64,000 nt of DNA, taken from positions 1-64,000 of the forward strand of contig NZ_BCQQ01000006.1 of assembly GCF_001552155.1 (NCBI RefSeq), given 5' to 3'. The notes beneath the pieces are model-generated. The model had not been told where the DNA came from. It saw only the letters and a program-made list of their open reading frames with translations, and ran no database searches. The translations under genes and the position numbers were made by a program. Origin of the DNA: Actinomadura formosensis NBRC 14204. Lineage in GTDB: Bacteria > Actinomycetota > Actinomycetes > Streptosporangiales > Streptosporangiaceae. Below are positions 8,405 to 29,658 of the stretch, piece by piece. Position 1 is the stretch's first letter. Every line of letters starts with the position of its first letter.

Positions 8405-9367
8405 ATGGCGAACACGAGCTCCCGGACGCTGCGGCTCCTGTCGTTGTTGCAGACCCATCGGTACTGGTCCGGGACGGAGCTGGCCGATCGGCTGGGCGTC
8501 TCCGTCCGCACCCTGCGCCGGGACGTCGACCGGCTGCGTGAGCTGGGCTATCCGGTCGAGGCGCAGCGCGGCGTCGACGGCGGCTACCAGTTGGCCGCCG
8601 GCGCGGCCCTGCCGCCGCTGGTGATCGACGATGAGGAGGCGGTCGCGCTGGCCGTGGGCCTGCAGGCCGCGGCGCAGGGCGCGGTGGAGGGCATCGCCGA
8701 GTCGTCGGTGCGGGCGCTGGCGAAGGTGGTGCAGGTGATGCCGGTCCGGCTGCGCCGCCAGGTGGAGGCGCTGCGTGCGATGACGGTGCCCGCCGGCTGG
8801 GGAGGGTCCGCCGCGCCGGACATCGACCCGGCCGTCCTCACCGTGATCGCGCTCGCCTGCCGGGACAGTGAACGGCTCCGCTTCCGCTACACCGCCGCTC
8901 AAGGTCACCGGACCGACCGGCAGGTCGAGCCGTACCGCCTCGTTCCGCTCGGCCGCCGCTGGTATCTGGTCGCCTACGACCTCGACCGGCACGACTGGCG
9001 CACCTTCCGGGTCGACCGGCTCACCGGACCGGAGGCCACCGGCGCCCGGTTCCGGCCCCGCGACCTGCCCGCCGCCGACGCCGCCGAGTTCGTCCGCGGC
9101 GCCCTGAGGGAGATACCGCACCCGCACCGGGTGGAGGCACTGATCGACGCCCCGGCCGCGGTCGTGCGCGAACGGATCGGCCGATGGAGCACGGTCGAGG
9201 AGGTGGACGCCGAGCAGTGCCGCGTCACCCTCACCACCGACTCCCTGAACTGGGCGATCATGGCCCTGGGCGTGGCCGGAGCCGACTTCCGCGTCCTGGA
9301 ACCCCCCGAACTGCGAGCCCGGCTGCACGACTGGGGCACCCGTTTCATCCGCGCATGCTCACGCTGA
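8405..9367 (+). CDS. HTH/WYL-domain transcriptional regulator
   Basis: The 320-residue regulator has an N-terminal winged helix (RTLRLLSLLQTHRYW, then LADRLGVSVRTLRRDVDRLR at about residues 25-45) and a WYL domain in which the W-Y-L triad reads RRWYLVAYDLDRHDWRTFRV. WYL regulators sense nucleotides or other small ligands. The start at 8405 is preceded by a short leader, and the intergenic gap to the divergent DinB gene is about 100 bp. It probably controls that gene and itself. Confidence 0.92.
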   Translation: MANTSSRTLRLLSLLQTHRYWSGTELADRLGVSVRTLRRDVDRLRELGYPVEAQRGVDGGYQLAAGAALPPLVIDDEEAVALAVGLQAAAQGAVEGIAESSVRALAKVVQVMPVRLRRQVEALRAMTVPAGWGGSAAPDIDPAVLTVIALACRDSERLRFRYTAAQGHRTDRQVEPYRLVPLGRRWYLVAYDLDRHDWRTFRVDRLTGPEATGARFRPRDLPAADAAEFVRGALREIPHPHRVEALIDAPAAVVRERIGRWSTVEEVDAEQCRVTLTTDSLNWAIMALGVAGADFRVLEPPELRARLHDWGTRFIRACSR

Positions 9368-9624
9368 ACGGCTCTGAGCCCGGCCGCCGAAATGATCTGA
9401 AACGCCGTCACCGCGGGCCGAGATCAAACTTGGGATCGGCATTGCCACCGTGCTTGCAACGTGACAAATGGATCTCCACCACGGCCGTTTGCTCTTGATC
9501 CCGAAATCCGGACGCACAGAGGTCTCCGAAACAGCAGATTCGGCCACCACAAAAATGGTCGTCGCTGGAAATCTCCCGCATATATGGTACCAATGCGGAG
9601 GGGGACCAGCAGCCCGGAGGCGCC

Positions 9625-10590
9625 GTGCAGGTCTGTGCGATCGGATGCGGAAACGTCGGATTCAACACACTGAAAGCCTTCCAAATCAGGGGGCACTCCG
9701 TCTTCGGCGTCGATATCAGCAAAGCCGCCCGGGGCAATGTCGCCGATTCTTTTGGCGCACATGCCGTCATCGACCGGCTTGCAGAGCTCAGCGGCATGGA
9801 CATCGTCTTCATCTGCGTTCCCACCGATCCTGACGAGGTGACCGGTCATGCCGACCTCAGCATCATGGAAGAGGTCGTCCGCGGGCTTTCATCACTGGAA
9901 TCCCGCCCCGCCTGGAGACGTCATCCGCCGGTGATCGTCCAGCGAAGCACCTGCCCACCGGGTTCGGCGGCCAGGTTTTCGGCGGAGTTCGAACACACGC
10001 CGTATGCCGTCAACCCGAGTTTCTTATCCAAGGCCACCCAGTGGGAGGACAGCGACCGCCCGCCCAGAATCGCCTATGCGGGCCCGAGCGAGGCAACTGA
10101 GGTCCTGGACGAGGTCTACAAGGAGTTCACCGGCGCCCCGAGGTATGTGTCCACGTCGTACGAGGCCGTGGAGCTGCTGAAATATATCGAGAACTCGATC
10201 GACGCCGTGCTCATCAGCCTGTGGAACGAGTATCTGCAACTGTCCGACGCGCTGGGGATGCAGCGCCGGTTCTTCGTTGAGCTCGCCAGGGAGATCACCT
10301 CGCGGGATAGATTCGCCACCACGCTGCGCGTGCCCGGCGGTTCCTTCGGAAAGTGGTGCCTCCCCAAAGACCTGTCGGCGCTCCTCGGCATGTGCGCGGA
10401 TCTCGGTGTCGCCGGTCATGTGCTCAGGGGCGCGCAGCTCACCAACCAGCAGATGAAGGACCATGGGGAGAACCTCGCCGCGACGAGCGAGTTACTGGCC
10501 TTGTCGGGCGGGCGCACGGTTCCGACGGACACCGCCGCAACCGCGCTGCTGGGCGGCTGCCAGGGCGTCCCGGGGGCGGATGGATGCTAG
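9625..10590 (+). CDS. Short UDP-glucose/GDP-mannose dehydrogenase-like protein lacking the C-terminal domain
   Basis: GTG 9625 (GGAGG 4 nt upstream) starts a 321-residue protein with a GCGNVG dinucleotide motif (7-12), CVPTDP (64-69), QRSTCPPG (106-113), the central-helix Lys in LLKYIENS (184-191) and a catalytic-Cys segment GGSFGKWCLPKDLSAL with Cys245. It ends right after this central domain; ordinary UDP-sugar dehydrogenases (about 430 residues) add a C-terminal nucleotide-sugar domain. The Cys motif has extra residues compared with FGGSCFPKD. The stop overlaps the next start (ATGCTAG). Substrate unknown. Confidence 0.82.
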   Translation: MQVCAIGCGNVGFNTLKAFQIRGHSVFGVDISKAARGNVADSFGAHAVIDRLAELSGMDIVFICVPTDPDEVTGHADLSIMEEVVRGLSSLESRPAWRRHPPVIVQRSTCPPGSAARFSAEFEHTPYAVNPSFLSKATQWEDSDRPPRIAYAGPSEATEVLDEVYKEFTGAPRYVSTSYEAVELLKYIENSIDAVLISLWNEYLQLSDALGMQRRFFVELAREITSRDRFATTLRVPGGSFGKWCLPKDLSALLGMCADLGVAGHVLRGAQLTNQQMKDHGENLAATSELLALSGGRTVPTDTAATALLGGCQGVPGADGC

Positions 10591-11795
10591 GAGAGCGCGG
10601 CGAGAAATGGTGGCAAAAGGTATTCCACGACACCTTTGTCCAGATCTTGGCTGGAATTCTCATAGCCGCCGTTCTCGCACTATCTCCGCATCTGATCGAA
10701 AGTTTGACGTGGCACATTGCAGCCTATATAGTTTGCGGATTCGCCGGTCTCGGGATATGTGCAGGTGGCATCAGGACTGTGATCAGCAGAAGAGTCATCG
10801 ACCGTGCAGGTTCACATAATACGGCGAATGAGATCGAGCAGCCGGTTTCCGGACGCGGCGACCTGGAGATACTGGCGCGCGAGGCGATCGGGGCCCTCGG
10901 GTTGAAGGTCACGGTCCGGGACGCCGAACTCCAGGCGACACCGCAGGTGGTATCGACCTTCGTCGACCTGAACATGCGGCGCGAAGCCACCGGTCTCATG
11001 GGCTACTACGACGCGGTCCGTTTTCTTCCCGTCACCCTGCCCAAGCAGAGGCATCCGGGCGGCCCCTACGAGATGGAGGTCGTCCGGGTCGACTATTCCC
11101 TGATCGCTCTCGTCAGCGATCCCGTTTCGCCCGCGACCGTCCGGGAGTCGGTCATGCGGCGGATCAGCCGCTTACCCAACGTCGACCCGGCGATACGCAG
11201 CGAATGGCGGGAAGGCCGCGTGGGGCTGCTGGGAACACAGCTCTGCCTCATCACCTCGGACCGGAAGATCCTGCTCAGAAGGCGGGGAGTCAACGTCCTC
11301 TTCGCCCGGAACCGCTGGGACGTCTCGGTCAGCGGTTTCTGCGGCACCGTCGATCTCGACGGTGAGTCGATACTGAACCCCTGCCTGACGGCGGAGCACG
11401 AGACGCTCAGAGAGATCGGCCATGTGCGCGCCGACCCGCGCAATCTGCGCATGCTGGGCGTGGTTCGCAACACGAACACGGGTGCCTTCGACATCCTCCT
11501 GGCCTGGGAGACCGACTCGGACTCCAGAGCCATCATGAAACTCCTGACGGCCAAGAACGCCCGGGAGAACACGGTTTTCGACACCGGCGTCCGGGCGATC
11601 GAACGCTACGTCTGGGACTCCAAGAACCTCCTCGTCAACCTGGACGCCGAGGACATGGAGTTCGCCTGGGACAGGTGCGGCGTCAAGGCCGAGGACTTCG
11701 AACCCCAGTCCCTGCTGTGCCTTGACCTGACCTTACGGATGTTCGCGAGCGACCGGGAACACGGGTTCCTGCGGCAAGGAGGTCCGGAAAATTGA
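10584..11795 (+). CDS. Membrane-anchored protein with degenerate Nudix-like domain
   Basis: ATG 10584 overlaps the stop of the dehydrogenase-like gene. The 403-residue protein has two N-terminal transmembrane helices (about 17-36 and 42-64), a linker, and a cytoplasmic region. Residues 210-310 look Nudix-like (LCLITSDRKILLRRRG, WDVSVSGFCGTVD, then MLGVVRNTNTGAFDILL), but the Nudix box is reduced to AEHETLREIG around 270-279 without the REUxEE glutamates, so hydrolysis is doubtful. I know no named family for the whole protein. A decayed homologue lies at 19818-20198. The stop overlaps the TTG start of the Nudix hydrolase. Confidence 0.75.
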   Translation: MLGERGEKWWQKVFHDTFVQILAGILIAAVLALSPHLIESLTWHIAAYIVCGFAGLGICAGGIRTVISRRVIDRAGSHNTANEIEQPVSGRGDLEILAREAIGALGLKVTVRDAELQATPQVVSTFVDLNMRREATGLMGYYDAVRFLPVTLPKQRHPGGPYEMEVVRVDYSLIALVSDPVSPATVRESVMRRISRLPNVDPAIRSEWREGRVGLLGTQLCLITSDRKILLRRRGVNVLFARNRWDVSVSGFCGTVDLDGESILNPCLTAEHETLREIGHVRADPRNLRMLGVVRNTNTGAFDILLAWETDSDSRAIMKLLTAKNARENTVFDTGVRAIERYVWDSKNLLVNLDAEDMEFAWDRCGVKAEDFEPQSLLCLDLTLRMFASDREHGFLRQGGPEN

Positions 11796-12331
11796 GCGCA
11801 CTCACCCGGGTGTCTCGGAAAGTCGTCTACACCAACCCCTGGCTCACCGTCTACGAGGACAGGATCAACCGCAGCGGAAAGCCCGGGATCTACGGTGTCG
11901 TCGAACGCCCGGACTCGGTCGTCATCAGCGTGAAGTCCCCCGGCGGGAACCTCCTGATGCTCAACAGCTTCCGCTACCCGACCGGCGAATGGTCCCTTGA
12001 GCTTCCGATGGGCGGGATCGACGGCGGCGAGTCCCCCGCCGGCGCGGCGCGGCGCGAACTGCGCGAGGAGACCGGTGTCCGATGCGACGATCTCCAAGAG
12101 CGCGGCTGGTTCTACGCCCTGCCCGGCCTGAGCGACCAGAAGGTCTACGTGTTCTCCGGCTCGGCCCCCGACGGGACCTTCGGGGGCGACATCGCCGAGC
12201 ACAGCGAAGAAGACCTGGGCAGTACCGCGTCGGTCGCCGCGAACCGCCTGGGCGAGATATACCGGCAGGGCCGGATCACCGACAGCCTGACCCTGTGCGG
12301 CCTGCTCATCGCCGGTTTCCACTTCACCTGA
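11792..12331 (+). CDS. Nudix hydrolase (ADP-ribose/nucleotide-sugar pyrophosphatase-like)
   Basis: A TTG start at 11792 is set by the perfect AAGGAGGT at 11775-11782 and by overlap with the previous stop (TTGA). The 179-residue product has an intact Nudix box at residues 74-96 (G-x5-E-x7-REL-x-EE-x-GV) after the upstream LELPMGG that is usual in ADP-ribose pyrophosphatases. Such enzymes split X-linked nucleoside diphosphates such as ADP-ribose or UDP-sugars. Coupling to a nucleotide-sugar dehydrogenase-like gene suggests nucleotide-sugar turnover (inference). Confidence 0.88.
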   Translation: MSALTRVSRKVVYTNPWLTVYEDRINRSGKPGIYGVVERPDSVVISVKSPGGNLLMLNSFRYPTGEWSLELPMGGIDGGESPAGAARRELREETGVRCDDLQERGWFYALPGLSDQKVYVFSGSAPDGTFGGDIAEHSEEDLGSTASVAANRLGEIYRQGRITDSLTLCGLLIAGFHFT

Positions 12332-12358
12332 CCGCGGTCTTGGGCGACAGGCCGCAAG

Positions 12359-13144
12359 TCAACGCAGTGGGTGGACGCGCAGGGCCGTGAACTCGAACTC
12401 GCAGTTGTCGGCACGCAGGCCGATCGAACCGGAGCGGGCGATCGGCGGGCCGTGCTCGCCGCCGTCCACGGCCTCCAGCAGTTCGCGGCCGTTCCGGGAG
12501 ACGGCGATGGTGACCAGTGAGCGGCCGTTGGAGGTGATCCGGACGCCGAACGACTGCCACGCACCGAACCGGAACGGGGCCCGGACCTGGCCGAGTGTGA
12601 CGTAGGTGCCGCCGTTCTCGGTGCCGCCGGTCAGCTTCTTCTTCACCACCAGCAGCCCGTCCCGCCGGTTCAGCGAAGCCACGTAGAGCTCGGTCTGGTC
12701 CTGGCGGCGCAGCATCAGGTGGACGCCGTCGCTCGGCCTGGTCGGTGCGCGCCCGCCGCCGGCCACGAACCGCAGGGTGCGGATCCTCAGCGTGACCTGG
12801 ACGTCGTCGAAGTCGGTACGGCGCGTGTTCATCCGGAACACGCTCGACCCCGTGCCGGTGGACGACCGGGCGTCGGGGGTGGCGCCGTCGGGCGGACCCG
12901 ACCAGCCGACGCCGTTCCGGGCGAAGAAGGATCCGCTGGTCACGTCCCAGTCCGGGGAGCGGCGCGCGTCGGAGGCGCGGGGGTTCCAGTGCGCGTACTC
13001 GTTGGTGATCAGCCGGTCGCGTCCGGACGTCGCGGGCGCGAAGTCCGCGCCGCCGGAGCCGAGGCCACCGGTCACCGACCAGACGGCCGGGGGGATCGCG
13101 GCGACGGCGAGGGCCCCCGCGATGATGGCCTGCCGGGAGGGCAT
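12359..13144 (-). CDS. Secreted LamG/concanavalin-fold-like protein of the polysaccharide operon
   Basis: The 261-residue product starts with a signal peptide or anchor (MPSRQAIIAGALAVAAIPPA) and continues as a beta-rich extracellular domain with DFDDVQVTLRIRTLRF, LMLRRQDQTELYVASLNRR, SFGVRITSNGRSLVTIAV and FEFTALRVHPLR, the pattern of LamG/DUF1080-like jelly rolls that bind or cleave glycans. The C-terminal domain of the 15268-16809 deacetylase has a similar ending (FEIAARDQSTLIFHEPTLDP). Last gene of the six-gene operon, 3 bp after the preceding stop. Function not known. Confidence 0.75.
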   Translation of the reverse strand: MPSRQAIIAGALAVAAIPPAVWSVTGGLGSGGADFAPATSGRDRLITNEYAHWNPRASDARRSPDWDVTSGSFFARNGVGWSGPPDGATPDARSSTGTGSSVFRMNTRRTDFDDVQVTLRIRTLRFVAGGGRAPTRPSDGVHLMLRRQDQTELYVASLNRRDGLLVVKKKLTGGTENGGTYVTLGQVRAPFRFGAWQSFGVRITSNGRSLVTIAVSRNGRELLEAVDGGEHGPPIARSGSIGLRADNCEFEFTALRVHPLR

Positions 13145-13147
13145 CGG

Positions 13148-13954
13148 CTACCCCGTGTCGAGCGCCGTGCAGAAACCGCGCGCGCGAAGCCCGCTGATGA
13201 TCGTCGGGAGGGCCTCGATGGTGGTGGCGGAGTTGGCGACGCCGTCGTGCATCAGCACCACCGAGCCGGGGACCGCCTGGTCGAGGACGGTGGCGGCGAT
13301 GTCGGCGGGACGCCGCCCGCGCCAGTCGGTGGTATCGACCGACCAGCGGACGACTCGCAACCCGAGCGCGCGGGCCTGGCCGTCCACGATGCCGTCGGTG
13401 TCGCCGAACGGCGGCCGGAACTGGGTGGGGCGCGGCGCACCCGCGCGGGTGATCGCGGCGTTGGTGTCGGCGAGCTGGCGGCGGACGGCGGCGGTGTCGA
13501 GGTCGGTCATGTGCGGGTGGTCCCAGCTGTGGTTCTGGGCGAGATGCCCGCCGGCGACGACCGCGCGGACCAGGTCCGGATGCGCGGTGGCCTTCTCGCC
13601 CATCATGAAGAACGTGGCGCGGACGTTGTAGGCGCGCAGGACCTCAAGGATCTGCGGCGTGTAGACGTCGGGGCCGTCGTCGAAGGTGAGAGCGACCCGT
13701 CCGCGCCTGCACACGTTGCTCGTGTCGGCGTTCTGGAGCATGGCGCGGGAGACGACGGTCTTGGCGCGGGCGGTGTCACCACCGCTGGGCTGCGGGAACA
13801 GCGCGTCCTGGGCGAGTGGAGTGATCGCGGCGAGTGCGAGGGCGCCGAAGCCCAGTTCGAGCAGGTGGCGGCGCAGCTGTCGGCGCGGGTGCCGTTCGCG
13901 GCGGGTGGGACGGCCGGGCCGCGTGGGCCCGGCCGTCCTCTTCTTCCTCGTCAT
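13148..13954 (-). CDS. Membrane-anchored polysaccharide deacetylase (NodB/CE4)
   Basis: From ATG 13954 the 268-residue protein has a basic N terminus, one transmembrane helix (about 35-52), and a complete NodB domain: TFDDGPD (motif 1, metal and base Asp), HSWDHPHM (motif 2, His-x3-His), RPPFGD (motif 3), WSVDTTDW (motif 4) and VLMHDG (motif 5). CE4 enzymes remove N- or O-acetyl groups from chitin-like polymers or peptidoglycan outside the membrane. The start overlaps the preceding stop (ATGA), showing translational coupling. Confidence 0.92.
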   Translation of the reverse strand: MTRKKRTAGPTRPGRPTRRERHPRRQLRRHLLELGFGALALAAITPLAQDALFPQPSGGDTARAKTVVSRAMLQNADTSNVCRRGRVALTFDDGPDVYTPQILEVLRAYNVRATFFMMGEKATAHPDLVRAVVAGGHLAQNHSWDHPHMTDLDTAAVRRQLADTNAAITRAGAPRPTQFRPPFGDTDGIVDGQARALGLRVVRWSVDTTDWRGRRPADIAATVLDQAVPGSVVLMHDGVANSATTIEALPTIISGLRARGFCTALDTG

Positions 13955-15249
13955 AGGCCCTGATCCATAAGGGAGAAGTCGTCGACGATGAGGGTGCCGA
14001 CGCCGGGCAGCGCGACGCCGAAGCTGATGTTGGTGGCGCCCGAGGGCACGGCGGGAGTCGTGACGAGCGTCTGCTGCCAGGTGTTCGTCTGCGTGAGGGT
14101 GGGACCGTTCGTCCAGAACGTCCATACTCCGGTGGCGCTGCGGTAGTAGATGCTCATCTTGGCGTGCACCGCCGACGACCAGGTGCCCTTGTACCAGACC
14201 CCGAGCCGGTATGCGTGGCCTGGTGTCGCGGCGGGCGCGCAGGTGCCGGCGTCCTGTTTCGTGACGAGCTTCCGGTCGCCGTCGGTGTACGCGGTGACGT
14301 CGACCCGCTCGGCGTACTGCCCGGTATGCGAGGCGCTCGTCCGCGACCAGGTGTAGGTGTTACTCCCGTATCCGCCGAGCTGGAAGCAGTCGGGGACGTT
14401 GCCGGTCGCGGTCTCCAGCGACGGGTTCTGAACGCTCGTCGGCGACGGCGGCCCGTCGACGGGTGGTTGCAGGCTTCCGCCGATGACCTGGTCGACCGTC
14501 TTCACCTGCGTCCCGTTCGCCGATCTCGGCGCCAGCCAGTCGAGGAACGATGAGAGGGTGGACGGGCTGATGGCATAGGTGTTGTCGCAGCCGTTGCAGA
14601 CGTGGTGGATGACGAGCTGCACCCATCCCCCGCCGTGCGTTTCCGCCTGGGTGACGTAGCCCTGGAGCTGGGCGAGCGTCGTGTCCGTTTTGACCGAGTC
14701 GGGGGTCTGGGTGAAGTAGGCGTCGGCGGGCGGGATCGTCTCGGCGTAGCCGCACCCGTTGCAGCTGCCGGGCGAGACGACCCCGCCGACCGTCCGGGCG
14801 CTGTTGTAGCCGCAGTCGTGCACCACCTGCTCGGACGTACCGTCGGCGTTCCCGTACGGGTAGGCGAAGTTCTTGATGGTGAAGCCCATGTTCAGTAACG
14901 CGACGCGGTCGTCGCAGACCTGCCGCTGCTGCTCGGCGACGGACAGCGTGGGCAGGTCGGCGTGCGTGATGGTGTGCCCGGCGATCTCGTTCCCGGCGGA
15001 CTCCAGCGACTCGATCTCCGCCTGCGTCATGTAGCCGGACGTCCCGACCCGCGCGCTGTTGATGAAGAACGTCCCTTTCATTCCGTGGCCGGCGAGCACC
15101 GGACGGGCGTTGTCGTACTGGTCCTGCGACCCGTCGTCGAACGTCAGCGACACGACCGTGCCGGTTTCGGCGCGTGCGGGCGCCGGGACGAGGACGAACG
15201 CGGTGACCAGCGTCGTGGCGAAGAGGAGAAGGATTCGTGGATGCATCAT
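13951..15249 (-). CDS. Secreted polysaccharide deacetylase with C-terminal carbohydrate-binding-like domain
   Basis: A signal peptide (residues 1-27, ending PAPARAE) leads to a NodB-like domain with SLTFDDGS, HTITHADL and FAYPYGNAD, then a Pro-rich linker near 265-275 and a roughly 150-residue beta-sandwich (VQNPSLET ... GTLIVDDFSLMDQ) typical of CBM-like modules. Six Cys in CDD, HDCGY, CNGCGY and CNGCDN segments suggest disulfides. Probably acts on a secreted N-acetylated polysaccharide. 432 residues; 18 bp downstream of the previous gene and coupled to the next. Confidence 0.9.
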   Translation of the reverse strand: MMHPRILLLFATTLVTAFVLVPAPARAETGTVVSLTFDDGSQDQYDNARPVLAGHGMKGTFFINSARVGTSGYMTQAEIESLESAGNEIAGHTITHADLPTLSVAEQQRQVCDDRVALLNMGFTIKNFAYPYGNADGTSEQVVHDCGYNSARTVGGVVSPGSCNGCGYAETIPPADAYFTQTPDSVKTDTTLAQLQGYVTQAETHGGGWVQLVIHHVCNGCDNTYAISPSTLSSFLDWLAPRSANGTQVKTVDQVIGGSLQPPVDGPPSPTSVQNPSLETATGNVPDCFQLGGYGSNTYTWSRTSASHTGQYAERVDVTAYTDGDRKLVTKQDAGTCAPAATPGHAYRLGVWYKGTWSSAVHAKMSIYYRSATGVWTFWTNGPTLTQTNTWQQTLVTTPAVPSGATNISFGVALPGVGTLIVDDFSLMDQGL

Positions 15250-15267
15250 CGGACTCCAGGAAATCGC

Positions 15268-16809
15268 TCAGCCCGCGCGGAGCGGGTCGAGCGTCGGTTC
15301 GTGGAAGATCAGGGTGCTCTGGTCGCGCGCCGCGATCTCGAACTTCAGGCCTCCTTTGCCGAGCCGCGGGTCGATCGTGGCGTGCAGCGGCGCGCCGCCC
15401 GCCACGGCGACGGTGAGCCGGGTGCCGCGCACCTCGATCCGGACGTCCCGCGCTCCCGCGCGCGACGCGATCGGCCGCCGGCCGAGCACGACCGGGTCCC
15501 GGTCGTCGACCCGCTGCCTGACCAGGACGGACGCGGTGCCGACGACGACCTCGACGCGGCCGCGGCGGTCCACGGCCGCGCCGTCCCGGACCGCGATCAC
15601 CGCGCTGGTGCGCGGGTCGATCCCGAAGACCGACGTGGTCACCCGGTAGTCCGTCCACCGGCTGGTGTTGACGCCGCCGAGCAGGCAACTCCCGTAGACA
15701 TCGCTGGTCACCCGCAGGTCGGAGGCGTGGCGCCGGCAGGTCGCCAGGTCGCCCGTCCACGGCAGCGCCCACAGGTCGTGCGGCGGCGGGGTGGGGACGG
15801 CGCCGCGGATCATCTCCAGCAGATCGGACACCGACGTGGTGGCGCGGACGCCGATCCGGCCGAGCGCCCAGCGCGGTGAATCCGCCGTCAGCGCGTCCAC
15901 ATGGCCGGTCGGGACGTTCTCGCCCACGAACGCCTCAGCGAACCCCGCGTGCCGGAGCAGTGCGGGCAGTTCCGCCGCGATCCGCGGGTCGTTGCCGGAC
16001 CCTCCCGGCCGACCGAACGGGTAGGAGAACGCCGTCACCCGGTGCCCGAGCGTCTTGCGGAAGAAGCGCTGGCTGCGGGCCAGATCACGGCGGACGCGGG
16101 CACGCCAATGCCCGATCGTCTCCCGCTTTCCGTCCACGAGGATCAGGTTCGGCATCGGCGCAGCGACGTCCCCGGGGATCCGGGCGAGGTCGTGCAGGCC
16201 GTCACTGTGCGAGCCGAATTCCCAGCGCCCGGTCGCGGCGAGGTCCTCGACCTGCCGGGTCGACAGGTAGTAGGACGGCGTGCCCGGCTGGACGATCTTC
16301 CCGGTGGTGAGGAAGCCTGCCGCGGTGAAGCCGTGCTCCTTCAGCACCGGGTCGGCGGTCGTCCAGTCGGTGAGCCGGCCGTCGTCGAAGGTGATCAGCA
16401 GGGCGCGGGGCGGCAGGTCGACGGGCCGGCGCGCGAGCAGGTCCTCCACGTCCCGCAGCCGGACCGTCCGGTACCCGGCCGCCGCCAGCGCCGCCATGTG
16501 CTCACCGAACAGTTCGCGTGACAGCGTGCTGCCGGTGTGGCCGGTGCCGGACACCCCGTGATACGTCAGGACGAGCACTGATCCCGGATAGCGGGGAAGC
16601 GCCGCCGCGGTTCGCGCCGTCCCCGGATCCAGCCGGACGGCCAGCGCCTCCTTCTGTCCCGGGTCGAATGGACGGCTCAACGTCACCCACGTGGTGAGCG
16701 CGAGACCGAGCGCGCACAGGAACACCAGGCCGGTGAACGCCCGGAACAGCCGGGTGGACCGGGCGGGCGGCGGCCTGTCCCACGGCGCGGGCTCCACCCG
16801 CTCAGCCAT
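15268..16809 (-). CDS. Membrane-anchored polysaccharide deacetylase with LamG-like C-terminal domain
   Basis: ATG 16809 overlaps the end of the glycosyltransferase gene by 8 bp. The 513-residue protein has one N-terminal transmembrane helix (about 22-44), a NodB domain of the PgaB/IcaB type (LVLTYHGVSG, LLITFDDGR, FGSHSDGLHDL, FSYPFGRPGG), then a C-terminal beta-rich domain from about residue 350 ending KFEIAARDQSTLIFHEP. The YHG plus FDDG pattern fits deacetylases that act on nascent poly-N-acetylhexosamine at the cell surface. The context supports processing of the polymer made by the adjacent GT2. Confidence 0.9.
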   Translation of the reverse strand: MAERVEPAPWDRPPPARSTRLFRAFTGLVFLCALGLALTTWVTLSRPFDPGQKEALAVRLDPGTARTAAALPRYPGSVLVLTYHGVSGTGHTGSTLSRELFGEHMAALAAAGYRTVRLRDVEDLLARRPVDLPPRALLITFDDGRLTDWTTADPVLKEHGFTAAGFLTTGKIVQPGTPSYYLSTRQVEDLAATGRWEFGSHSDGLHDLARIPGDVAAPMPNLILVDGKRETIGHWRARVRRDLARSQRFFRKTLGHRVTAFSYPFGRPGGSGNDPRIAAELPALLRHAGFAEAFVGENVPTGHVDALTADSPRWALGRIGVRATTSVSDLLEMIRGAVPTPPPHDLWALPWTGDLATCRRHASDLRVTSDVYGSCLLGGVNTSRWTDYRVTTSVFGIDPRTSAVIAVRDGAAVDRRGRVEVVVGTASVLVRQRVDDRDPVVLGRRPIASRAGARDVRIEVRGTRLTVAVAGGAPLHATIDPRLGKGGLKFEIAARDQSTLIFHEPTLDPLRAG

Positions 16810-18166
16810 CGCTCGCCGCCGCGCTGTAGACCTGGACCGGACGCGGCGCGGCCGGCGACGCGGGTGTCGTCGTGTCCCGCGTGCCCCACTTCCCGTCCCG
16901 GATCCGCGCGATCGCCCACAACAGCTGGGGCGAGAACGCGACATAGAAGAACGTCCCGATGAACGCGTAGATCCACATGCCGTCGTCGCGCAGCATCCGG
17001 TACGTCAGCGCGTAGCCCATCGACACCAGGTACAGGCCGAGGAAGTAGATCATCGGGAAGCGGCCGCCGGCGATCGGTGTCGCCAGGCTGTACAGCACCA
17101 CGATCGGGCTGAGCAGCCCCGCGATCGTCTGCACGGCGATCGACGGCAGGGCCCGCGTCCGGCTCCGCCACACGTGAGCCAGCAGCAGCGGCCCCTCCCG
17201 GCTCCACGACTTCTTCCACCGCAACTGCTGCCGGAAGAACTTGCGGTACCGGTCCGGCGCGTCCGTCCACGCCTCCGCCCGGGCGTCGTAGCGGGTCGTC
17301 CAGCCGGCCTTGATGACCCGGTTGGTGAGCGCCCGGTCGTCCCCGTAGGTGCACTCGACGCCGAGGAACCGCTGATGCTCCCACGCGTTCAGCAGCGGCG
17401 CGATCGCCGTCCGCCGGTACGCCGCGAAGCAGCCGGAGCAGCACGTGACCGCGCCCAGCACCGACTCGGCGCTCTTGAGCAACTGGAACGACACGTAGTA
17501 GCGCGCCGCCTGCATCCTGGTCAGCACGTTGCTCTCGGCGTTGCGGACGTAGGTGAGCCCGGAGATCGCGCCGACCTTCTCGTCGGCGAACCCCTGCACC
17601 AGCAACCGGACCGAGTCCGGCGCCGGCATCGAGTCGGAGTCGACGAACACCAGGATCTCCGCCGACGTCGCCCGGATCCCGGCCGCCATCGCCGCGCGCT
17701 TCCCCTTGTTGCCGCCAAGGTCGACGCACCGCACCTGCCCCTCCGGATACTGCGCGGCGGCCTCCTGCATGCGCTCCCACGTGTCGTCGGTGGACCCGTC
17801 GTTCACCACGACGATCTCCAGCCTGTCCCCGGGATAGTTCAGCCCGATGCAGGAGTGGATCGTCCGGGCGACGGCCTCGCCCTCGTTGTAGGCGGGCACC
17901 ACGATCGCGACGGACGGGGCGATGCCCGCGTCACGCGGCGGCCGGTAGAACACCGCGAGCACGAACCGGCTGATCACATAGCTGCTGACCAGCACCGTGT
18001 ACGTCGGCAGCAGCAGGTTGCCGCGCATGTACGCGACCTTCACGCCGACATGCCAGATGATGACGCCGCAGATCGCGGCCACACCGGCCAGCGCTCCGAG
18101 CGGCACCGGGCGTGCTGTCCGGGGCAGGCCGCCGAAGGGGATCCGCGGCCTTCGGCGGCGGCTCAC
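16802..18166 (-). CDS. Processive GT2 glycosyltransferase, hyaluronan/chitin-synthase-like
   Basis: The 454-residue protein has two N-terminal transmembrane helices (about 20-46 and 50-74), a GT2 domain and several C-terminal helices. Catalytic motifs are present: VPAYNE (90-95), DGS (123-125), the DxD in VDSDS (175-179), SGCFAAYRR (244-252), GDDR (275-278) and the processivity motif QQLRW (313-317). The GDDR...QQLRWKKSW block resembles HasA and NodC more than CesA. It should polymerise and export a beta-linked hexosamine-containing polysaccharide. The start overlaps the upstream dehydrogenase stop (ATGA). Confidence 0.9.
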   Translation of the reverse strand: MSRRRRPRIPFGGLPRTARPVPLGALAGVAAICGVIIWHVGVKVAYMRGNLLLPTYTVLVSSYVISRFVLAVFYRPPRDAGIAPSVAIVVPAYNEGEAVARTIHSCIGLNYPGDRLEIVVVNDGSTDDTWERMQEAAAQYPEGQVRCVDLGGNKGKRAAMAAGIRATSAEILVFVDSDSMPAPDSVRLLVQGFADEKVGAISGLTYVRNAESNVLTRMQAARYYVSFQLLKSAESVLGAVTCCSGCFAAYRRTAIAPLLNAWEHQRFLGVECTYGDDRALTNRVIKAGWTTRYDARAEAWTDAPDRYRKFFRQQLRWKKSWSREGPLLLAHVWRSRTRALPSIAVQTIAGLLSPIVVLYSLATPIAGGRFPMIYFLGLYLVSMGYALTYRMLRDDGMWIYAFIGTFFYVAFSPQLLWAIARIRDGKWGTRDTTTPASPAAPRPVQVYSAAASDG

Positions 18167-19449
18167 AGCGCCACGCGCCGGGCGCGGCCGGAGAAGCGGT
18201 ACGTCGCGTCCAGCAGCAACTGGTCCTCGTGCAGCCAGCCCAGGTCGAGGGCCTGGTGCGGGGTGTGCGCGATCACTAAGTCCGCCGAGCCCGGTTCGAC
18301 GCTCGCCAGCTTCGTCCCGCCCTCGGTGACCAGCTCAGGCACGTGCGGATCGTGGTATCTGACCCGCGCGCCCGCCGCGAGCAGCCTGTCGATGATCTCC
18401 AGCGCGGGCGACTCGCGCAGATCCTCGACCTCCGGCTTGTAGGCGACGCCGAGGATCAGCACGTCCGCGCCCGCCAGACCGCGCCCCTGGTCCGACAGCA
18501 CCTGCCGGGCCCGCTCCACCACCCGCCCCGGACGCATCGCGATGGCGTTCATCGCCGCCGACACCAGCGGCGTGTCCAGCCGGTCCCGCTTCAGCTGCCA
18601 CAGCAGGTAGTGCGGATCGCACGGGATGCAGTGCCCGCCCGCCCCCGGACCGGGAAAGAACGGCATGTACCCGTACGGTTTCGTCGCCGCCGCCTCGATG
18701 ACCTCCGTCACGTCAAGCTCCAGCAGCCGGCTCGCGTCCGCGAACTCGTTGACCAGCGCGATGTTCACGGCCCGGAACGTGTTCTCCAGCAGCTTGGTCA
18801 TCTCGGCGGCCTCCGCCGACGACACCGTGTGCAGCTTCCCCGCGTACCGTCCGAGCAGCCCGGCGGCCCGCTCCGCGCACCGTGGCGTCATGCCCCCGAC
18901 CACCCGCGGCACGTCCTCGTGCGCGTGCCGGTCGTTGCCCGGGTCGATCCGTTCCGGGCTGAACGCGACGAACACGTCCGTCCCCACCCGCAACCCCCGC
19001 GCGGTCAGCGGCCGGGCGAGCAGTTCCTTCGTCGACCCCACGTAGCTGGTCGAGGTCAGCACGATCGTCTGCCCTGTCCGGGCGTGCGCGGCAGCGGTGG
19101 CGCACGCCCCTGCCAGCGCCCTGAGGTCCGGGACGAGATGCCGGTTCACCGGCGTCGGGACGCAAATGATCACCGCGTCCGCCCGGGACGCGTCGGCGGG
19201 CTCGGCGGTCACCGCGAACCCGTCCCGCGCCGCCCGCAGCCGTTCATGGTCGTTGTCCAGCAGGTCGACGCGTCCGGACCGGATGGCCTCCAGCCGGCCC
19301 GGGTCCAGATCGACGCCGAGCACGCGCAGCCCGGCGGCGTGGAAGGCGAGCGCGGTCGGCAGCCCGACATAACCCAGCCCGATGACCGCGACATCGTATG
19401 TCGATGAATCGGCGGATCGCGCCCTAACAGGCGAAGCAGCGAAGGACAT
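18163..19449 (-). CDS. Nucleotide-sugar 6-dehydrogenase (UDP-GlcNAc/UDP-Glc type)
   Basis: Full-length 428-residue enzyme: NAD-binding GLGYVG (24-29), CVPTPVN (96-102), STSYVGST, SPERIDPGND, and the catalytic PGPGAGGHCIPCDPHYL with Cys274, followed by the C-terminal nucleotide-sugar domain. The GAGGHCIPxDPxYL form is more usual in UDP-N-acetylhexosamine dehydrogenases (WbpA/WecC-like) than in UDP-glucose dehydrogenase, so the product may be UDP-GlcNAcA or UDP-GlcA. First gene of the six-gene operon, supplying the acidic precursor to the GT2 (inference). Confidence 0.9.
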   Translation of the reverse strand: MSFAASPVRARSADSSTYDVAVIGLGYVGLPTALAFHAAGLRVLGVDLDPGRLEAIRSGRVDLLDNDHERLRAARDGFAVTAEPADASRADAVIICVPTPVNRHLVPDLRALAGACATAAAHARTGQTIVLTSTSYVGSTKELLARPLTARGLRVGTDVFVAFSPERIDPGNDRHAHEDVPRVVGGMTPRCAERAAGLLGRYAGKLHTVSSAEAAEMTKLLENTFRAVNIALVNEFADASRLLELDVTEVIEAAATKPYGYMPFFPGPGAGGHCIPCDPHYLLWQLKRDRLDTPLVSAAMNAIAMRPGRVVERARQVLSDQGRGLAGADVLILGVAYKPEVEDLRESPALEIIDRLLAAGARVRYHDPHVPELVTEGGTKLASVEPGSADLVIAHTPHQALDLGWLHEDQLLLDATYRFSGRARRVAL

Positions 19450-19817
19450 GGCTCATTGATCTCCCGCGTGAGGTCCAGATGAACTGGACTCTCTCCACTA
19501 TCTGCCGCCCATATCTTGGAGCAGCGAAAGATAACCAGGACCCACCCGAAAGTCAGACCTATCATGATCACTGGCCATAGATTCTTATCCGACTTTTCCT
19601 GACAGGCATCCTGGATTTTAATCCCTTGGAACCGGGTCCAGCCCAGGCAAGCTGAAACCCGATTCCCGCGTTCCGCGTAATTTGACGTTTTTAGAGGTGT
19701 GGTGCCGACCTGAAAGGTTCAGCGCGACGATTCGATGGGCCGGCCCGGCGATGCCGGAGGCGCAGATCGTTGGTTCTCGGCGGCCTGGAGGGCACCGCGC
19801 GAGCGGAGGATATTGGC
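19450..19817. other. Operon promoter region and non-coding sequence
   Basis: This stretch is more AT-rich than its neighbours, especially 19480-19700, and should contain the minus-strand promoter of the polysaccharide operon. No convincing coding frame was found. A minus-strand frame starting near 19571 opens with a hydrophobic helix but only runs antiparallel into the dehydrogenase gene in another frame. I see no clear -35/-10 pair that I would defend. Confidence 0.5.
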
Positions 19818-20198
19818 CGGGCTGCCCTATGGGTGGAGTTCGTCCGGGTCGGCTATTCCCTGATCGCCCCTGTCGGCACGTCTCACCCGCGAATGCCCGA
19901 GAGTCGGTTATGCGGCGGATCAGCCGCTTGGCAACGCCGACCCGGCGATACGCAGCAAATGACAGGAAGGCCGCGCGGGGTTGTCGAGGACGCAATTCTT
20001 CCTCATCACCTCAGACCGGAAGATCCCACTCAGAAGGCGGGGCGTTGTCCTCTTCGCCCGAACCGCTGGGACGTCTCGGTCAGCGGTTTCTGCGGCACCT
20101 CCGATCTCGACGGCGAGTCGATACCGACCTCCTGCCCGCCGGCGGAGCATGAGACGCCCGGCGAGATCGGCCATGCGCGGGCCGACTCCGCGCAATTC
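19818..20198 (+). pseudogene. Decayed copy of the membrane Nudix-like gene
   Basis: The DNA aligns by eye with 11051-11447, the central and Nudix-like part of the intact gene at 10584-11795. Matching segments include CGTCCGGGTCG.CTATTCCC, TCATGCGGCGGATCAGCCGC (one mismatch), TCACCTC.GACCGGAAGATC and CTGGGACGTCTCGGTCAGCG. It has single-base indels that break the frame (for example after LLFAR and at the AATGACAGG stop) and lacks the transmembrane part and the C terminus. Same orientation as the intact gene, on the other side of the polysaccharide operon. Confidence 0.85.
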
Positions 20199-20370
20199 AC
20201 CCGCGCGAGCCGTCCAGGCGGCGGCCACGGGGGCCGGCGGAGAGCAGACCGCCAGTGGCACACCCTCGGGATGGTTGCCCATTTCACCGAGGGGAGAGGG
20301 GTCGGGACAGCGGCCAGGTTCCAGCGAGCGCGGACCGCACCGACCCGGCCGTCCGGGAGAGAACGACGCG

Positions 20371-20667
20371 ATGAGAGTCATGCTGAGAGCGCACATGGAC
20401 ACCAAGGCTTCAAACGAGGCGCTCAAAAGCGGAAAACTTCCGGAGATCCTCAATTCAATGATGGATCGGCTCAATCCTGAAGCGGTCTACTTCGGCCCCG
20501 GCGAGGGCGGACGCGCCTGCACCGTGGTCTTCGACATGCAGGACAGCTCAATGCTGCCGAGCATCGCCGAGCCGCTTTTCCAGGAGCTGGGCGCGAAGGT
20601 CGAGATCCAGCCGGTGATGACCCGAGAAGATCTGGAGAAGGGTCTCACGGCGCTGCGGCAAAGCTGA
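20371..20667 (+). CDS. DUF3303-family small protein
   Basis: ATG 20371 gives 98 residues beginning MRVMLRAHMDTKASNEALKS and containing LNPEAVYFGPGEGGR, FDMQDSSMLPSIAEPLFQ and VEIQPVMTREDLEKGL, the layout of DUF3303 (a dimeric alpha/beta-barrel, ABM-like fold). Function unknown. The frame is open far upstream, but that part is the pseudogene and non-coding sequence. A GGGAGAG purine stretch lies about 10 nt upstream. It lies 290 bp ahead of the YCII/sigma-factor pair on the same strand. Confidence 0.85.
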   Translation: MRVMLRAHMDTKASNEALKSGKLPEILNSMMDRLNPEAVYFGPGEGGRACTVVFDMQDSSMLPSIAEPLFQELGAKVEIQPVMTREDLEKGLTALRQS

Positions 20668-20675
20668 CCAAGGCC

Positions 20676-20721
20676 CCGGCCCGCCCGCACGGCCGTCCCC
20701 CGGATGGTTCGAGCGGGCCGG
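20676..20721 (+). terminator. Possible terminator after the DUF3303 gene
   Basis: CCGGCCCGC (20676-20684) pairs perfectly with GCGGGCCGG (20713-20721), with a long 28-nt loop, just past the DUF3303 stop at 20667. The loop is long, so this is tentative. The rest of 20722-20957 shows nothing recognisable beyond the ribosome binding site of the next gene. Confidence 0.3.
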
Positions 20722-20957
20722 CCGGGGGTGGGGCTGGTGGCGGTGCAGATCGAGCAGCCGCGCACGCAGACGCCGGTCAGGGGCGCAGGCGAGGTCGAGA
20801 GGTGCATGCCCTCCACGCCGGACAGCTCATCGGTCCGAGGCTCATCTACGAGAGCCCCAAAAAAAATCGGGGCGGCGATGTCGAGAACCCGGAACCGGCT
20901 CCGTCCCCGGTGTGAACGCGACCAGAATGGGTCGCACCAGCATCGAGGAGAGACCCG

Positions 20958-21365
20958 ATGGCCAAGTACCTGCTGCTCAAGCACTACCGCGGCGCCCCGG
21001 CTTCGGTCAACAACGTGCCGATGGACCGGTGGACGCCGGAGGAGATCTCGGCCCACGTCCAGTACATGAACGACTTCGCGGCCCGGCTGGAGGAGACCGG
21101 CGAGTTCGTCGACGGTCAGGCGCTCGCACCCGAGGGGACGTGGGTCCGGTACGACGGCGAGGGCCGCCCGCCGGTCACCGACGGCCCGTTCGCCGAGACC
21201 AAGGACCTCATCGCCGGCTGGATGGTGATCGACGTCGACGGCTACGAGCGCGCCGTCGAGCTGGCCGGGGAGCTGTCGGCCGCCCCCGGGGCGGGCGGCA
21301 GGCCGATCCACGAGTGGCTGGAGGTGCGCCCGTTCCTGACCGCGCCGCCCACCATCACGGAGTGA
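20958..21365 (+). CDS. YCII-related (DGPF-domain) protein
   Basis: The 135-residue protein begins MAKYLLLKHYRGAPASVNNV and contains the DGPF signature VTDGPFAETKDLIAGWMVID, placing it in the YCII-related DGPF family (PF03795). The start follows GGAGAGACCCG. The last codon overlaps the GTG start of the sigma-factor gene (GTGA). DGPF genes are the usual partners of ECF42-group sigma factors, and in studied cases are among their targets. Confidence 0.93.
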   Translation: MAKYLLLKHYRGAPASVNNVPMDRWTPEEISAHVQYMNDFAARLEETGEFVDGQALAPEGTWVRYDGEGRPPVTDGPFAETKDLIAGWMVIDVDGYERAVELAGELSAAPGAGGRPIHEWLEVRPFLTAPPTITE

Positions 21366-22519
21366 CATCTCAGGTGAACGAGGTCCTGCTCCGGAGCCTC
21401 ACGCCGAACGTCCTGGCGATCCTCGTCCGCCGCGGAGCCGACTTCGCGGCGGCCGAGGACGCCGTGCAGGACGCGCTGGTCGAGGCGGTCCGCGTCTGGC
21501 CGGCCGACCCGCCCCGGGACCCGAAGGGCTGGCTGGTCACCGTGGCCTGGCGCCGGTTCCTCGACACGACCCGGGCGGACGCCGCCCGCCGCCGACGCGA
21601 GGACCTCGTGGACGAGGAGCCTGCCCCCGGGCCCGCGCCCGCGGTGGACGACACGCTCCAGCTCTACTTCCTGTGCGCCCACCCGTCGCTGACGCCGTCG
21701 TCCGCGGTCGCGCTCACGCTGCGCGCCGTCGGCGGGCTGACCACCCGCCAGATCGCCCAGGCCTACCTGGTGCCCGAGGCGACCATGGCGCAGCGCATCA
21801 GCCGGGCCAAACGCACCGTCTCCGGCGTGCGGTTCGACCAGCCCGGCGACGTCGCCACCGTGCTGCGCGTCCTCTACCTGGTCTTCAACGAGGGCTACTC
21901 CGGCGACGTCGACCTGGCCGCCGAGGCCATCCGGCTCACCCGGCGGCTCGCCGCCGCGATCGACCATCCCGAGGTGGCGGGGCTGCTCGCCCTCATGCTG
22001 CTCCACCACGCCCGGCGCGCCGCCCGGACCGCGCCCGACGGCAGCCTGGTACCGCTCGCCGAGCAGGACCGCGGCCGGTGGGACACCACGTTGATCGCCG
22101 AGGGCGTCGAAATCCTGCAGGCGGCCCTCGCCCGCGACCGGCTGGGCGAGTTCCAGGCCCAGGCCGCCATCGCGGCACTGCACGCCGACGCGCCCACCGC
22201 CGAGGAGACCGACTGGGTACAGATCGTCGAGTGGTACGACGAGCTCGCGCGCCTGACCGACAGCCCGGTCGTCCGGCTCAACCGCGCGGTGGCCGTCGGC
22301 GAGGCCGACGGACCACGCGCCGGCCTGGCGGCGCTCGCGGCGCTGGACGCCTCACTACCCCGATACGCCGCGGTGGCGGCGTATCTCCACGAGCGCGACG
22401 GCGACCTGGCGACGGCGGCACGGCTGTACGCCGAGGCGGCCCAGAAGGCACCCAACCTCACCGAACGCGACCACCTGACGCGCCAGGCCGCCCGCCTCAA
22501 CACCCACCGGCACCGCTGA
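21362..22519 (+). CDS. ECF sigma factor, ECF42-like, with C-terminal TPR-like extension
   Basis: GTG 21362 overlaps the YCII stop (GTGA); GTG 21374 is an alternative. The 385-residue protein has region 2 (AEDAVQDALVEAVRVWP, DPKGWLVTVAWRRFLD), region 4 (LTLRAVGGLTTRQIAQAYLVPEATMAQRISRAK) and a long helical C-terminal extension (DUF6596/TPR-like) with LVFNEGYSG, LLHHARRAAR and RAVAVGEADGP. This architecture plus the DGPF neighbour defines ECF42. These sigmas have no dedicated anti-sigma factor; the extension controls activity. Confidence 0.92.
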   Translation: MTSQVNEVLLRSLTPNVLAILVRRGADFAAAEDAVQDALVEAVRVWPADPPRDPKGWLVTVAWRRFLDTTRADAARRRREDLVDEEPAPGPAPAVDDTLQLYFLCAHPSLTPSSAVALTLRAVGGLTTRQIAQAYLVPEATMAQRISRAKRTVSGVRFDQPGDVATVLRVLYLVFNEGYSGDVDLAAEAIRLTRRLAAAIDHPEVAGLLALMLLHHARRAARTAPDGSLVPLAEQDRGRWDTTLIAEGVEILQAALARDRLGEFQAQAAIAALHADAPTAEETDWVQIVEWYDELARLTDSPVVRLNRAVAVGEADGPRAGLAALAALDASLPRYAAVAAYLHERDGDLATAARLYAEAAQKAPNLTERDHLTRQAARLNTHRHR

Positions 22520-22539
22520 CGAGCCGCACCCGAAGCCCG

Positions 22540-22670
22540 CCCGGTCGGCGCAGGCCGTGGCCGCGCGCAGGACCGTGGACGTGCGTCACCGACGTCGCGG
22601 CGACTCACCATGAGCTTCGGTCCGTGTGGGTCTTCGCTGTTACGGACGGCGACGACATTGGAAATCAGCG
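22540..22670 (-). pseudogene. DUF397 gene remnant fused to a dispersed repeat
   Basis: On the minus strand, about 22605-22668 encodes VVAVRNSEDPHGPKLMVSRR, matching the DUF397 core (QIAVRDSKDPDGPKVIMSRD at 27271-27456), but both ends of the gene are gone. It runs directly into 22540-22605, which is similar to 27136-27205, the sequence 65 bp downstream of the intact DUF397 gene. It therefore looks like an internally deleted copy of the DUF397 plus flank unit. Confidence 0.65.
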
Positions 22671-22819
22671 CCCGTGCCACAGCCGTAGATCGCGCCGGTG
22701 ACCTGCGGTGACGCTGGACGCGGGGCGGCCACCCGACTTGGACGCGTTCTGTGATCTATTGTGAGCGGGGAGTGCCGGTGCGGTGTCCCTGCCCGGTGGC
22801 GTGAGTAGGGCACCGTGCT

Positions 22820-22915
22820 GCGCGCTTCAAGATCGGTCGGAATGTGCTGTTCGAGGAATCGGACGTGCGGGCCTGGATCAAGGCGCACGGCATACCTGCC
22901 GAGCCCTGCTGCCGG
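22820..22915 (+). pseudogene. Excisionase/MerR-like helix-turn-helix remnant
   Basis: The frame RFKIGRNVLFEESDVRAWIK followed by AHGIPAE (22823-22900) reads like the wing and C terminus of an excisionase-family (AlpA/Xis, HTH_17) protein, in which RRxGRxxRFxxxDVxAWL is characteristic. No intact upstream helix-turn-helix or start is present. It may be a vestige of an integrated element. The remainder of 22671-23010 has no convincing gene. Confidence 0.5.
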
Positions 22916-23010
22916 GCATCGCAAGGATTGGGTGCCGTCGCAGCAATGAGTCTGCCGGCGTCCACAGGTCTACCTCCCGACCGAGACGACCAACTCATCG
23001 GGAGTAAGGC

Positions 23011-23655
23011 ATGGGCCTCATCCATATCGCGATGTTCGCAACCCTCGACCTCGTCGGACAGTCGCCCGGCGGCCCCGACGAGGACCCGGTGGGGTTCCCG
23101 TTCGGCGGCTGGCAGGCGCCCCTGCTGGACGAGGTCACCGGGGCGCAGATCGGCGCCGCGTACGAGGGCACCGACGCCCTCCTGCTCGGCCGGCGGACGT
23201 ATGACATCTTCGCCGCCTACTGGCCGCACCAGGAGGGCGGCGAGGACAACGAGATCGCCGTGCTCTTCAACAGCGTCCCCAAGTACGTGGCCTCCCGCGG
23301 CAAGCCCGACCTGTCGTGGGCCGGGTCCACGCAGCTCGGCCCGGATCTGGCCGGCGCGGTGCGCGAGATCCGCGACCGGCACGAGCACGTGAAGGTCGTC
23401 GGGAGCCTGAACCTGGTGCAGACCCTCCTGCACGAGAAGCTCTTCGACCGCCTCGACCTCTGGGTGCACCCGATCGTGCTCGGCGTCGGGAAGAAGGTGT
23501 TCGACGGCGGCGAGGTGCCCACGAACCTCACACTCCTCAAACCACCGGCAGCCAGTCCGAAGGGCACCGTGTACCTGTGCTACGGACTCGCCGGCGGCAC
23601 GCCCGGGACAGGGGACATGAGCGCACCCGATCACGGTGTCGGCCACGACAGCTGA
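23011..23655 (+). CDS. RibD C-terminal-domain / dihydrofolate-reductase-like protein
   Basis: The 214-residue protein begins MGLIHIAMFATLDLVGQSPG and has the RibD_C fold signatures: GTDALLLGRRTYDIFAAYWP, VKVVGSLNLVQTLLHEKLFD and LDLWVHPIVLGVGKKVFDGG. Actinobacterial members are NADPH-dependent reductases of unknown substrate related to RibD and DHFR. A GGGAG sequence sits about 8 nt before the ATG. It converges with the NB-ARC gene, with a strong palindrome in between. Confidence 0.92.
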   Translation: MGLIHIAMFATLDLVGQSPGGPDEDPVGFPFGGWQAPLLDEVTGAQIGAAYEGTDALLLGRRTYDIFAAYWPHQEGGEDNEIAVLFNSVPKYVASRGKPDLSWAGSTQLGPDLAGAVREIRDRHEHVKVVGSLNLVQTLLHEKLFDRLDLWVHPIVLGVGKKVFDGGEVPTNLTLLKPPAASPKGTVYLCYGLAGGTPGTGDMSAPDHGVGHDS

Positions 23656-23713
23656 AGCCGCCCCGTGCCAGGTGGGTCCGTATCGTCGGCGGTGCATCCG
23701 CCAGGTCGCATTC

Positions 23714-23753
23714 CGTCACGGCGTCGGCAGTTCGAAGTGCCGACGCCGTGACG
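23714..23753. terminator. 16-bp perfect inverted repeat between convergent genes
   Basis: CGTCACGGCGTCGGCA (23714-23729) pairs perfectly with TGCCGACGCCGTGACG (23738-23753) around an 8-nt loop that itself contains TTCGAA. It lies between the ends of the RibD-like (+) and NB-ARC (-) genes and probably terminates both. The rest of 23656-23976 shows no gene. Confidence 0.65.
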
Positions 23754-23976
23754 ACATGCCTCGCCAGAGAGTCACCGCCGTCACGCAATGGTCCGGCAGG
23801 CCCCGTGGTAGCCAGGTCCGTTGGGTGCGTGCACGATGAACGGCGGGTCGGCAGTGGCCGAGCATGCTCGCGGACCGCACGTCACATTGGCCGTCCACCA
23901 TCGCGGACGTCGCCCAAGCCGTTCAGACCTGTGTCGGCGGACGGCCGTCATGCATCCCACGCCTGGCCGTCCAGGC

Positions 23977-27456: not shown

Positions 27457-27488
27457 CTCGTCGTTCCTCCGGAGCACGCAGTTTAATT

Positions 27489-27674: not shown

Positions 27675-27706
27675 CTCATCGTCCATCCGGTGCGCACAGC
27701 TTAATC

Positions 27707-29597: not shown

Positions 29598-29658
29598 CCC
29601 GCCGGAGAGTCGGCACGACGACAACAGGGGAGGGTGTCGCCCGGCGCAAGGCGGGTGA

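Follow-up and report, generated by a model that had tools for sequence, protein, structure and literature searches.

A conserved actinomycete operon joining a hyaluronan-synthase-like glycosyltransferase, a UDP-sugar dehydrogenase and three deacetylases, and the polysaccharide that it may make

Which polysaccharide would be made by an operon that couples a hyaluronan-synthase-like enzyme to a UDP-sugar dehydrogenase and to three different deacetylases? The question is raised by a 64,000-nucleotide stretch of the Actinomadura formosensis NBRC 14204 genome (contig NZ_BCQQ01000006.1, positions 1 to 64,000), referred to here as the window, in which a cassette of six minus-strand genes runs from 19449 to 12359. 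A first-pass annotation had compared the first two genes to the HasA/HasB pair and had proposed a partly deacetylated, acidic and possibly zwitterionic product. We give a probability of about one half to the reading that this operon makes a synthase-dependent, acidic amino-sugar exopolysaccharide that is partly de-N-acetylated and probably zwitterionic.

The cassette and its glycosyltransferase

The six genes are separated by short gaps or overlap outright. The first encodes a UDP-sugar 6-dehydrogenase of 428 amino acids (18163..19449) and shares a 4-nt overlap, GTGA at 18163-18166, with the gene for a membrane polysaccharide synthase of glycosyltransferase family 2 (GT2; 454 amino acids, 16802..18166). 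The synthase gene in turn overlaps by 8 nt the gene for DA1, a deacetylase of carbohydrate esterase family 4 (CE4; 513 amino acids, 15268..16809), whose start is most likely ATGGCTGA at 16809, overlapping the GT2 stop, and not the longer open reading frame start that was called mechanically. After 18 nt follows a second CE4 deacetylase, DA2 (432 amino acids, 13951..15249), which meets the third, DA3 (268 amino acids, 13148..13954), in a 4-nt ATGA overlap at 13951-13954, and 3 nt further on lies the last gene, LAMG, for an exported jelly-roll protein (261 amino acids, 12359..13144). The gene layout and coordinates of the first-pass annotation were confirmed, and the motifs GAGGHCIPCDP, GDDR and QQLRW are present. 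Pfam identified the N-terminal, central and C-terminal UDPG_MGDP_dh domains in the dehydrogenase, GT2 families in the synthase, and Polysacc_deac_1 separately in each of the three deacetylases (E = 3e-14, 5e-23 and 1e-35). A scan for promoters and terminators found nothing above chance.

The synthase has two N-terminal transmembrane helices, a GT-A domain containing GDDR and QQLRW, and C-terminal transmembrane helices with a WGTR motif; all three motifs were unchanged across 26 relatives. Among solved structures its best sequence matches were the Xenopus and chlorovirus hyaluronan synthases (HAS; E values of 1e-35 and 4e-27). A fold search using its AlphaFold model (pLDDT 86) returned HAS as the top 13 PDB matches, with TMq up to 0.70 and a root-mean-square deviation of 3.6 for 8sne, and an archaeal GT2 enzyme, BcsA and chitin synthases ranked after these. 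The model agrees with the hyaluronan-synthase-like type that had been proposed, and the enzyme is predicted to be a processive synthase of the HAS/NodC/chitin-synthase type with a HAS-type channel architecture.

The trees placed the synthase in a broad, uncharacterized clade beside HAS and NodC, with members from Actinomycetota, Methylococcales, Nitrospirota, Elusimicrobia, Patescibacteria and others, and in one tree HAS and NodC were together set apart from this clade with support of 96/95. In approximately unbiased (AU) tests, joining the synthase with PgaC (p 0.007) or with the Mat-type synthases (p 0.005) was rejected, so that a poly-N-acetylglucosamine or Mat-type synthase was ruled out. 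A cellulose synthase was likewise discarded, as the CelA profile gave 39.9 bits against a cut-off of 699 and the HAS fold matches outranked BcsA. Joining with HAS alone (p 0.19) or with NodC alone (p 0.12) was not rejected, in trees whose HAS references are fragments taken from PDB alignments and have long branches. On tree evidence the synthase appears to belong to a separate clade next to these two, and it need not be an orthologue of HasA.

Substrate of the dehydrogenase

The closeness of the synthase to HAS, which it resembles most among solved enzymes in both sequence and fold, favors a hyaluronan- or heparosan-like polymer, in which the dehydrogenase would act on UDP-glucose, the synthase, like HAS, would alternate glucuronic acid and N-acetylglucosamine (GlcNAc), and glucosamine amines would then be exposed by the deacetylases. 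The chlorovirus gene set of has, UDP-glucose dehydrogenase and GFAT, which serves hyaluronan synthesis, is a working parallel (PMC5408694). The dehydrogenase itself speaks against this explanation. Its active-site motif, GAGGHCIPCDP, contains the GGHC common to WecC, Cap5O and the 4r16 enzyme, and the two canonical dehydrogenase copies of the host, as well as CalS8, carry a G-C-x-x-K-D form instead. It matched the UDP-ManNAcA dehydrogenase and Cap5O by sequence in the PDB, and its profile scores were highest for UDP-N-acetylmannosamine dehydrogenase (WecC, 210-211 bits), followed by TviB (164 bits) and UDP-glucose dehydrogenase (108-124 bits). In the tree all operon-linked dehydrogenases fell on the N-acetylhexosamine (HexNAc) side, with WecC, Cap5O and the 4r16 enzyme, and apart from the canonical UDP-glucose dehydrogenases.

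Because motif, profiles and tree agree, the enzyme was assigned to the UDP-HexNAc dehydrogenase type, and we infer that its substrate is some UDP-HexNAc, with every score under its curated equivalog cut-off. A HasB-type enzyme with a GGSCFPKD-like motif was ruled out on the same three grounds. The host genome also holds two canonical UDP-glucose dehydrogenase-like genes outside the operon, a further point against the hyaluronan- or heparosan-like polymer, which we regard as doubtful. Of the HasA/HasB comparison, then, a HAS-like synthase with a linked UDP-sugar dehydrogenase stood, the HasB type did not, and orthology with HasA is no more than possible. A second, short nucleotide-sugar-dehydrogenase-like gene lies at 9625-10590 on the plus strand; its 321-amino-acid product has no UDP-binding C-terminal domain, and its branch in the tree is very long.

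Deacetylases, linked genes and the proposed product

The three deacetylases, first noted as NodB-domain proteins with different anchors and C-terminal domains, proved to be of three CE4 sub-types, each over the Pfam cut-off and each retaining the metal-ligand motifs D-D and H-x3/4-H. DA1 is of the PgaB/IcaB type, with an N-terminal membrane anchor, FDDG and HSDGLH metal-site motifs and a beta-rich C-terminal domain, and a profile search of the PDB matched it to the poly-N-acetylglucosamine deacetylases PgaB and BpsB (1.5e-40 for BpsB). DA2 is a divergent CE4 protein with a signal peptide, TFDDG and HTITH motifs and a carbohydrate-binding-like C-terminal domain, and it is found full-length, tail included, in methanotroph loci as well. 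DA3 is membrane-anchored, carries the complete classical CE4 motifs of the PgdA/chitooligosaccharide type and matches GlcNAc deacetylases. The last protein had no Pfam match and a profile search of the PDB returned nothing for it; its AlphaFold model (pLDDT 84) has a ConA/LamG-like jelly-roll fold, in keeping with the LamG-like secreted protein first proposed. Its mycobacterial relatives have a lipobox-like cysteine, and in an Acidimicrobiia locus a DA1-type deacetylase is fused to a jelly-roll domain. A role as a lyase was considered and dropped, as the fold search put CBM66 first and otherwise gave an ulvan lyase at a low TM score and generic lectins; no enzyme was assigned.

The similarity to NodC and NodB, together with the range of the CE4 family, which takes in peptidoglycan and oligosaccharide deacetylases, could fit something other than a free exopolysaccharide, namely a short lipo-oligosaccharide or the tailoring of a cell-wall glycopolymer (Nod-factor- or teichuronic-like). 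We consider this very improbable, given that an acyltransferase, a lipid-linked first glycosyltransferase and a ligase are all missing from the cassette and that the synthase model has the channel-forming architecture of the polymerizing HAS.

We also asked how these gene types are linked in other genomes. By adjacency windows that are heuristic, a CE4 gene lay directly downstream of the synthase in 54 of 63 testable loci outside the home clade, in many phyla, and a dehydrogenase lay directly upstream in 20 of 59 (13 of 17 within Actinomycetota). A class-wide search with the dehydrogenase found relatives in 11 other genomes. Among the eight larger regions examined around them, a GT2 gene, often of another sub-type, was present in all eight, a CE4 gene (DA1-type, or DA2-type with its tail) in seven, an SDR epimerase-like gene in five and GlmS in three. 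Within the synthase clade, three methanotroph loci and one from Omnitrophota had GlmS as well, and the presence of this gene in several such clusters suggests a demand for amino sugars. Found independently of the window, these linkages tie the dehydrogenase, GT2 and CE4 types to one amino-sugar polymer.

The same counts bear on an amino-sugar homopolymer (poly-GlcNAc, chitin- or chitosan-like), for which the synthase would use UDP-GlcNAc only, the deacetylases would make the chain cationic, and the dehydrogenase would serve decoration or another glycan. The best NCBIfam profile for the synthase is NodC (TIGR04242; 188.9 bits, below the cut-off of 550), DA1 resembles PgaB, and many loci of the wider clade consist of a GT2 and a CE4 gene with no dehydrogenase adjoining. 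However, the dehydrogenase is adjacent throughout the home clade and in the actinomycete majority just given, its relatives accompany other GT2-CE4 pairs, and Pilimelia terevasa has at that position a dehydrogenase that is different yet belongs to the same super-clade. A homopolymer is therefore unlikely in our view.

For the acidic, partly de-N-acetylated polymer that we prefer, the following sequence of events can be proposed. The dehydrogenase would oxidize a UDP-N-acetylhexosamine in the cytoplasm, judging from its family most likely UDP-GlcNAc to UDP-N-acetylglucosaminuronic acid (UDP-GlcNAcA), and the synthase would polymerize the acidic sugar, probably in alternation with GlcNAc, and, like HAS, would export the growing chain by way of a membrane channel of its own, as its predicted fold would allow. 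Outside the membrane the anchored DA1 could strip N-acetyl groups from the emerging chain, and the anchored DA3 and the secreted DA2, whose motifs are likewise present, could deacetylate other positions or act at later stages. The jelly-roll protein, from its fold, may bind the polymer, and the outcome would be an acidic, partly de-N-acetylated and probably zwitterionic chain.

Several observations weigh against this reading. Membership of a dehydrogenase sub-family does not settle the substrate, and the synthase could work with a single donor. No dehydrogenase adjoins the synthase gene in 39 of the 59 testable loci of the wider clade, so the clade as a whole may not need a uronate. Metal-ligand residues of DA1 are lost in several relatives, with TFDGG in Pilimelia and TFDTG in one metagenome-assembled genome (loci L019 and L020) and the second histidine gone in others, so that catalysis by DA1 is not universal; the altered motifs suggest a non-catalytic role for the orthologues in L019 and L020. 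The first interpretation is thus partly borne out: the synthase type, the linked dehydrogenase, the three deacetylases and the conserved operon are supported, and the polymer that it proposed fits the comparative data best; what needs correcting is the HasB type, with HasA orthology no more than possible. More tentatively, it is possible that the synthase clade across its phyla makes an aminoglycan of N-acetylhexosamine and N-acetylhexosaminuronate that is deacetylated to a zwitterionic polymer, and that the Actinomadura cassette, with its three deacetylase types, is the most elaborate version.

Two other kinds of locus were seen in these comparisons. In the actinomycete loci L158, L160 and L162 a dehydrogenase, an SDR epimerase-like gene, GlmS and a DA2-type deacetylase stand with another GT2 sub-type, and they probably represent a sister polymer system. 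In several proteobacterial, Acidobacteria, Nitrospirota and Nitrospinota loci (L029, L034, L038, L041, L044 and L057), the GT2-deacetylase pair is followed, a few kb further downstream, by a very large open frame (some 4 kb or longer) that includes a DA1-like deacetylase domain.

Conservation of the cassette and comparison with known systems

A scan of species genomes and a comparison of gene order found the identical six genes in identical order in Actinomadura physcomitrii, A. montaniterrae, A. rifamycini, Actinomadura sp. OS1-43 and CNU-125, and four Actinoallomurus species; the operon, whose order in relatives had been named as a point to check, is thus intact and not broken up. In Pilimelia terevasa the order is kept, with the distantly related dehydrogenase as first gene and one extra jelly-roll gene, and in Amorphoplanes nipponensis parts are rearranged, with DA2 on the opposite strand. 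The synthase is present in 10 of 65 Actinomadura genomes, so its distribution within the genus is patchy. The recurrence of gene order and orientation outside the genus shows that the grouping is more than chance, and the six-gene set is a family spread over several genera of soil actinomycetes and not a one-off.

The genes flanking the cassette vary among relatives. DNA homology with the operon-bearing relatives begins at 12345 and ends between 19476 and 19549, which defines a conserved cassette at 12345..19549. It lies within a 23.5-kb variable region (9355..32870), since in three relatives (G317, G310 and G340) the left-hand part of the window, to 9354 at least, continues through 5-7 kb of other DNA into the window sequence from 32871 onward. 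In G310 the cassette is at 6.20 Mb and the syntenic block at 0.92 Mb; from this separation, and from a shared unit with unshared flanks, the cassette appears to move as a unit, by either relocation or transfer. Its GC content is host-like (71.3%), and the rest of the variable region has 66.5%.

The variable region, absent at the same site in these three relatives, has low-GC stretches of about 60-62% versus 71%, additionally encodes an NB-ARC/TPR protein and an HTH_31/DUF5753 regulator, and is marked by no tRNA. An imperfect direct repeat (84-88%) lies on both sides of the operon, at 11074-11435 and 19834-20186, and a degenerate partial copy of the NUDIX-like open reading frame at 10353-11795 is found immediately upstream of it, perhaps the trace left by a duplication or an insertion.

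A role in the sporangium matrix was set aside, as the Actinoplanes missouriensis imp, wps and gsf clusters are described as Wzx/Wzy- or GtrA-type (PMC13390465, PMC12691653) and so belong to another system. No publication on the six-gene set was found in the open-access literature, in agreement with the remark of the first-pass annotation that no described actinomycete system with exactly this set is known; the kind of system, a synthase-dependent exopolysaccharide, is known, and the gene set itself is conserved and, in that literature, undescribed. If the proposed product is correct, the operon adds to the synthase-dependent exopolysaccharides a type in which a single enzyme of the HAS fold builds an acidic polymer with free amines. 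This type would occur in actinomycetes, and its GT2-deacetylase core is shared with methanotrophs, Nitrospirota, Elusimicrobia and Patescibacteria. The operon would also offer a compact, self-contained gene set for probing donor choice by membrane GT2 enzymes, and zwitterionic glycosaminoglycan-like material might be obtained from it.

Several known systems share parts of this design. Like pgaABCD and icaADBC, the operon combines a GT2 with a PgaB/IcaB-type deacetylase acting on an exported chain, but pga has no dehydrogenase, and here the grouping with PgaC was rejected and there are three CE4 sub-types. With nodBC it shares a chitin-type GT2 and a NodB-fold deacetylase; it differs in a synthase under the NodC cut-off, in having no NodA-type acyltransferase and in its dehydrogenase. 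The Streptomyces-type Mat locus, a NodB-GT2 fusion, is an actinomycete combination of GT2 and NodB for an extracellular amino-sugar polymer, and the host carries a copy of this locus on contig C58; in contrast, the genes here are separate, the synthase is in a separate clade, with grouping rejected, and a dehydrogenase and extra deacetylases are present. The streptococcal hasABC and chlorovirus has sets likewise link a UDP-sugar dehydrogenase to a single HAS-fold membrane GT2, and the chlorovirus GFAT has its counterpart in the GlmS of some relatives of the present system; the operon described here differs in its UDP-HexNAc-type dehydrogenase, in a synthase from a separate clade, and in its additional three deacetylases and jelly-roll protein. 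Closer in logic than the chlorovirus has set are the clusters of chloroviruses and fungi in which genes for a chitin synthase (CV class), a UDP-GlcNAc 6-dehydrogenase and a polysaccharide deacetylase lie together, as the same three functions do here, and whose product is also unproven (PMC5122149); they differ in that their GT2 is a division 2 chitin synthase, in their occurrence in algal viruses and fungi, and in having no six-gene operon.

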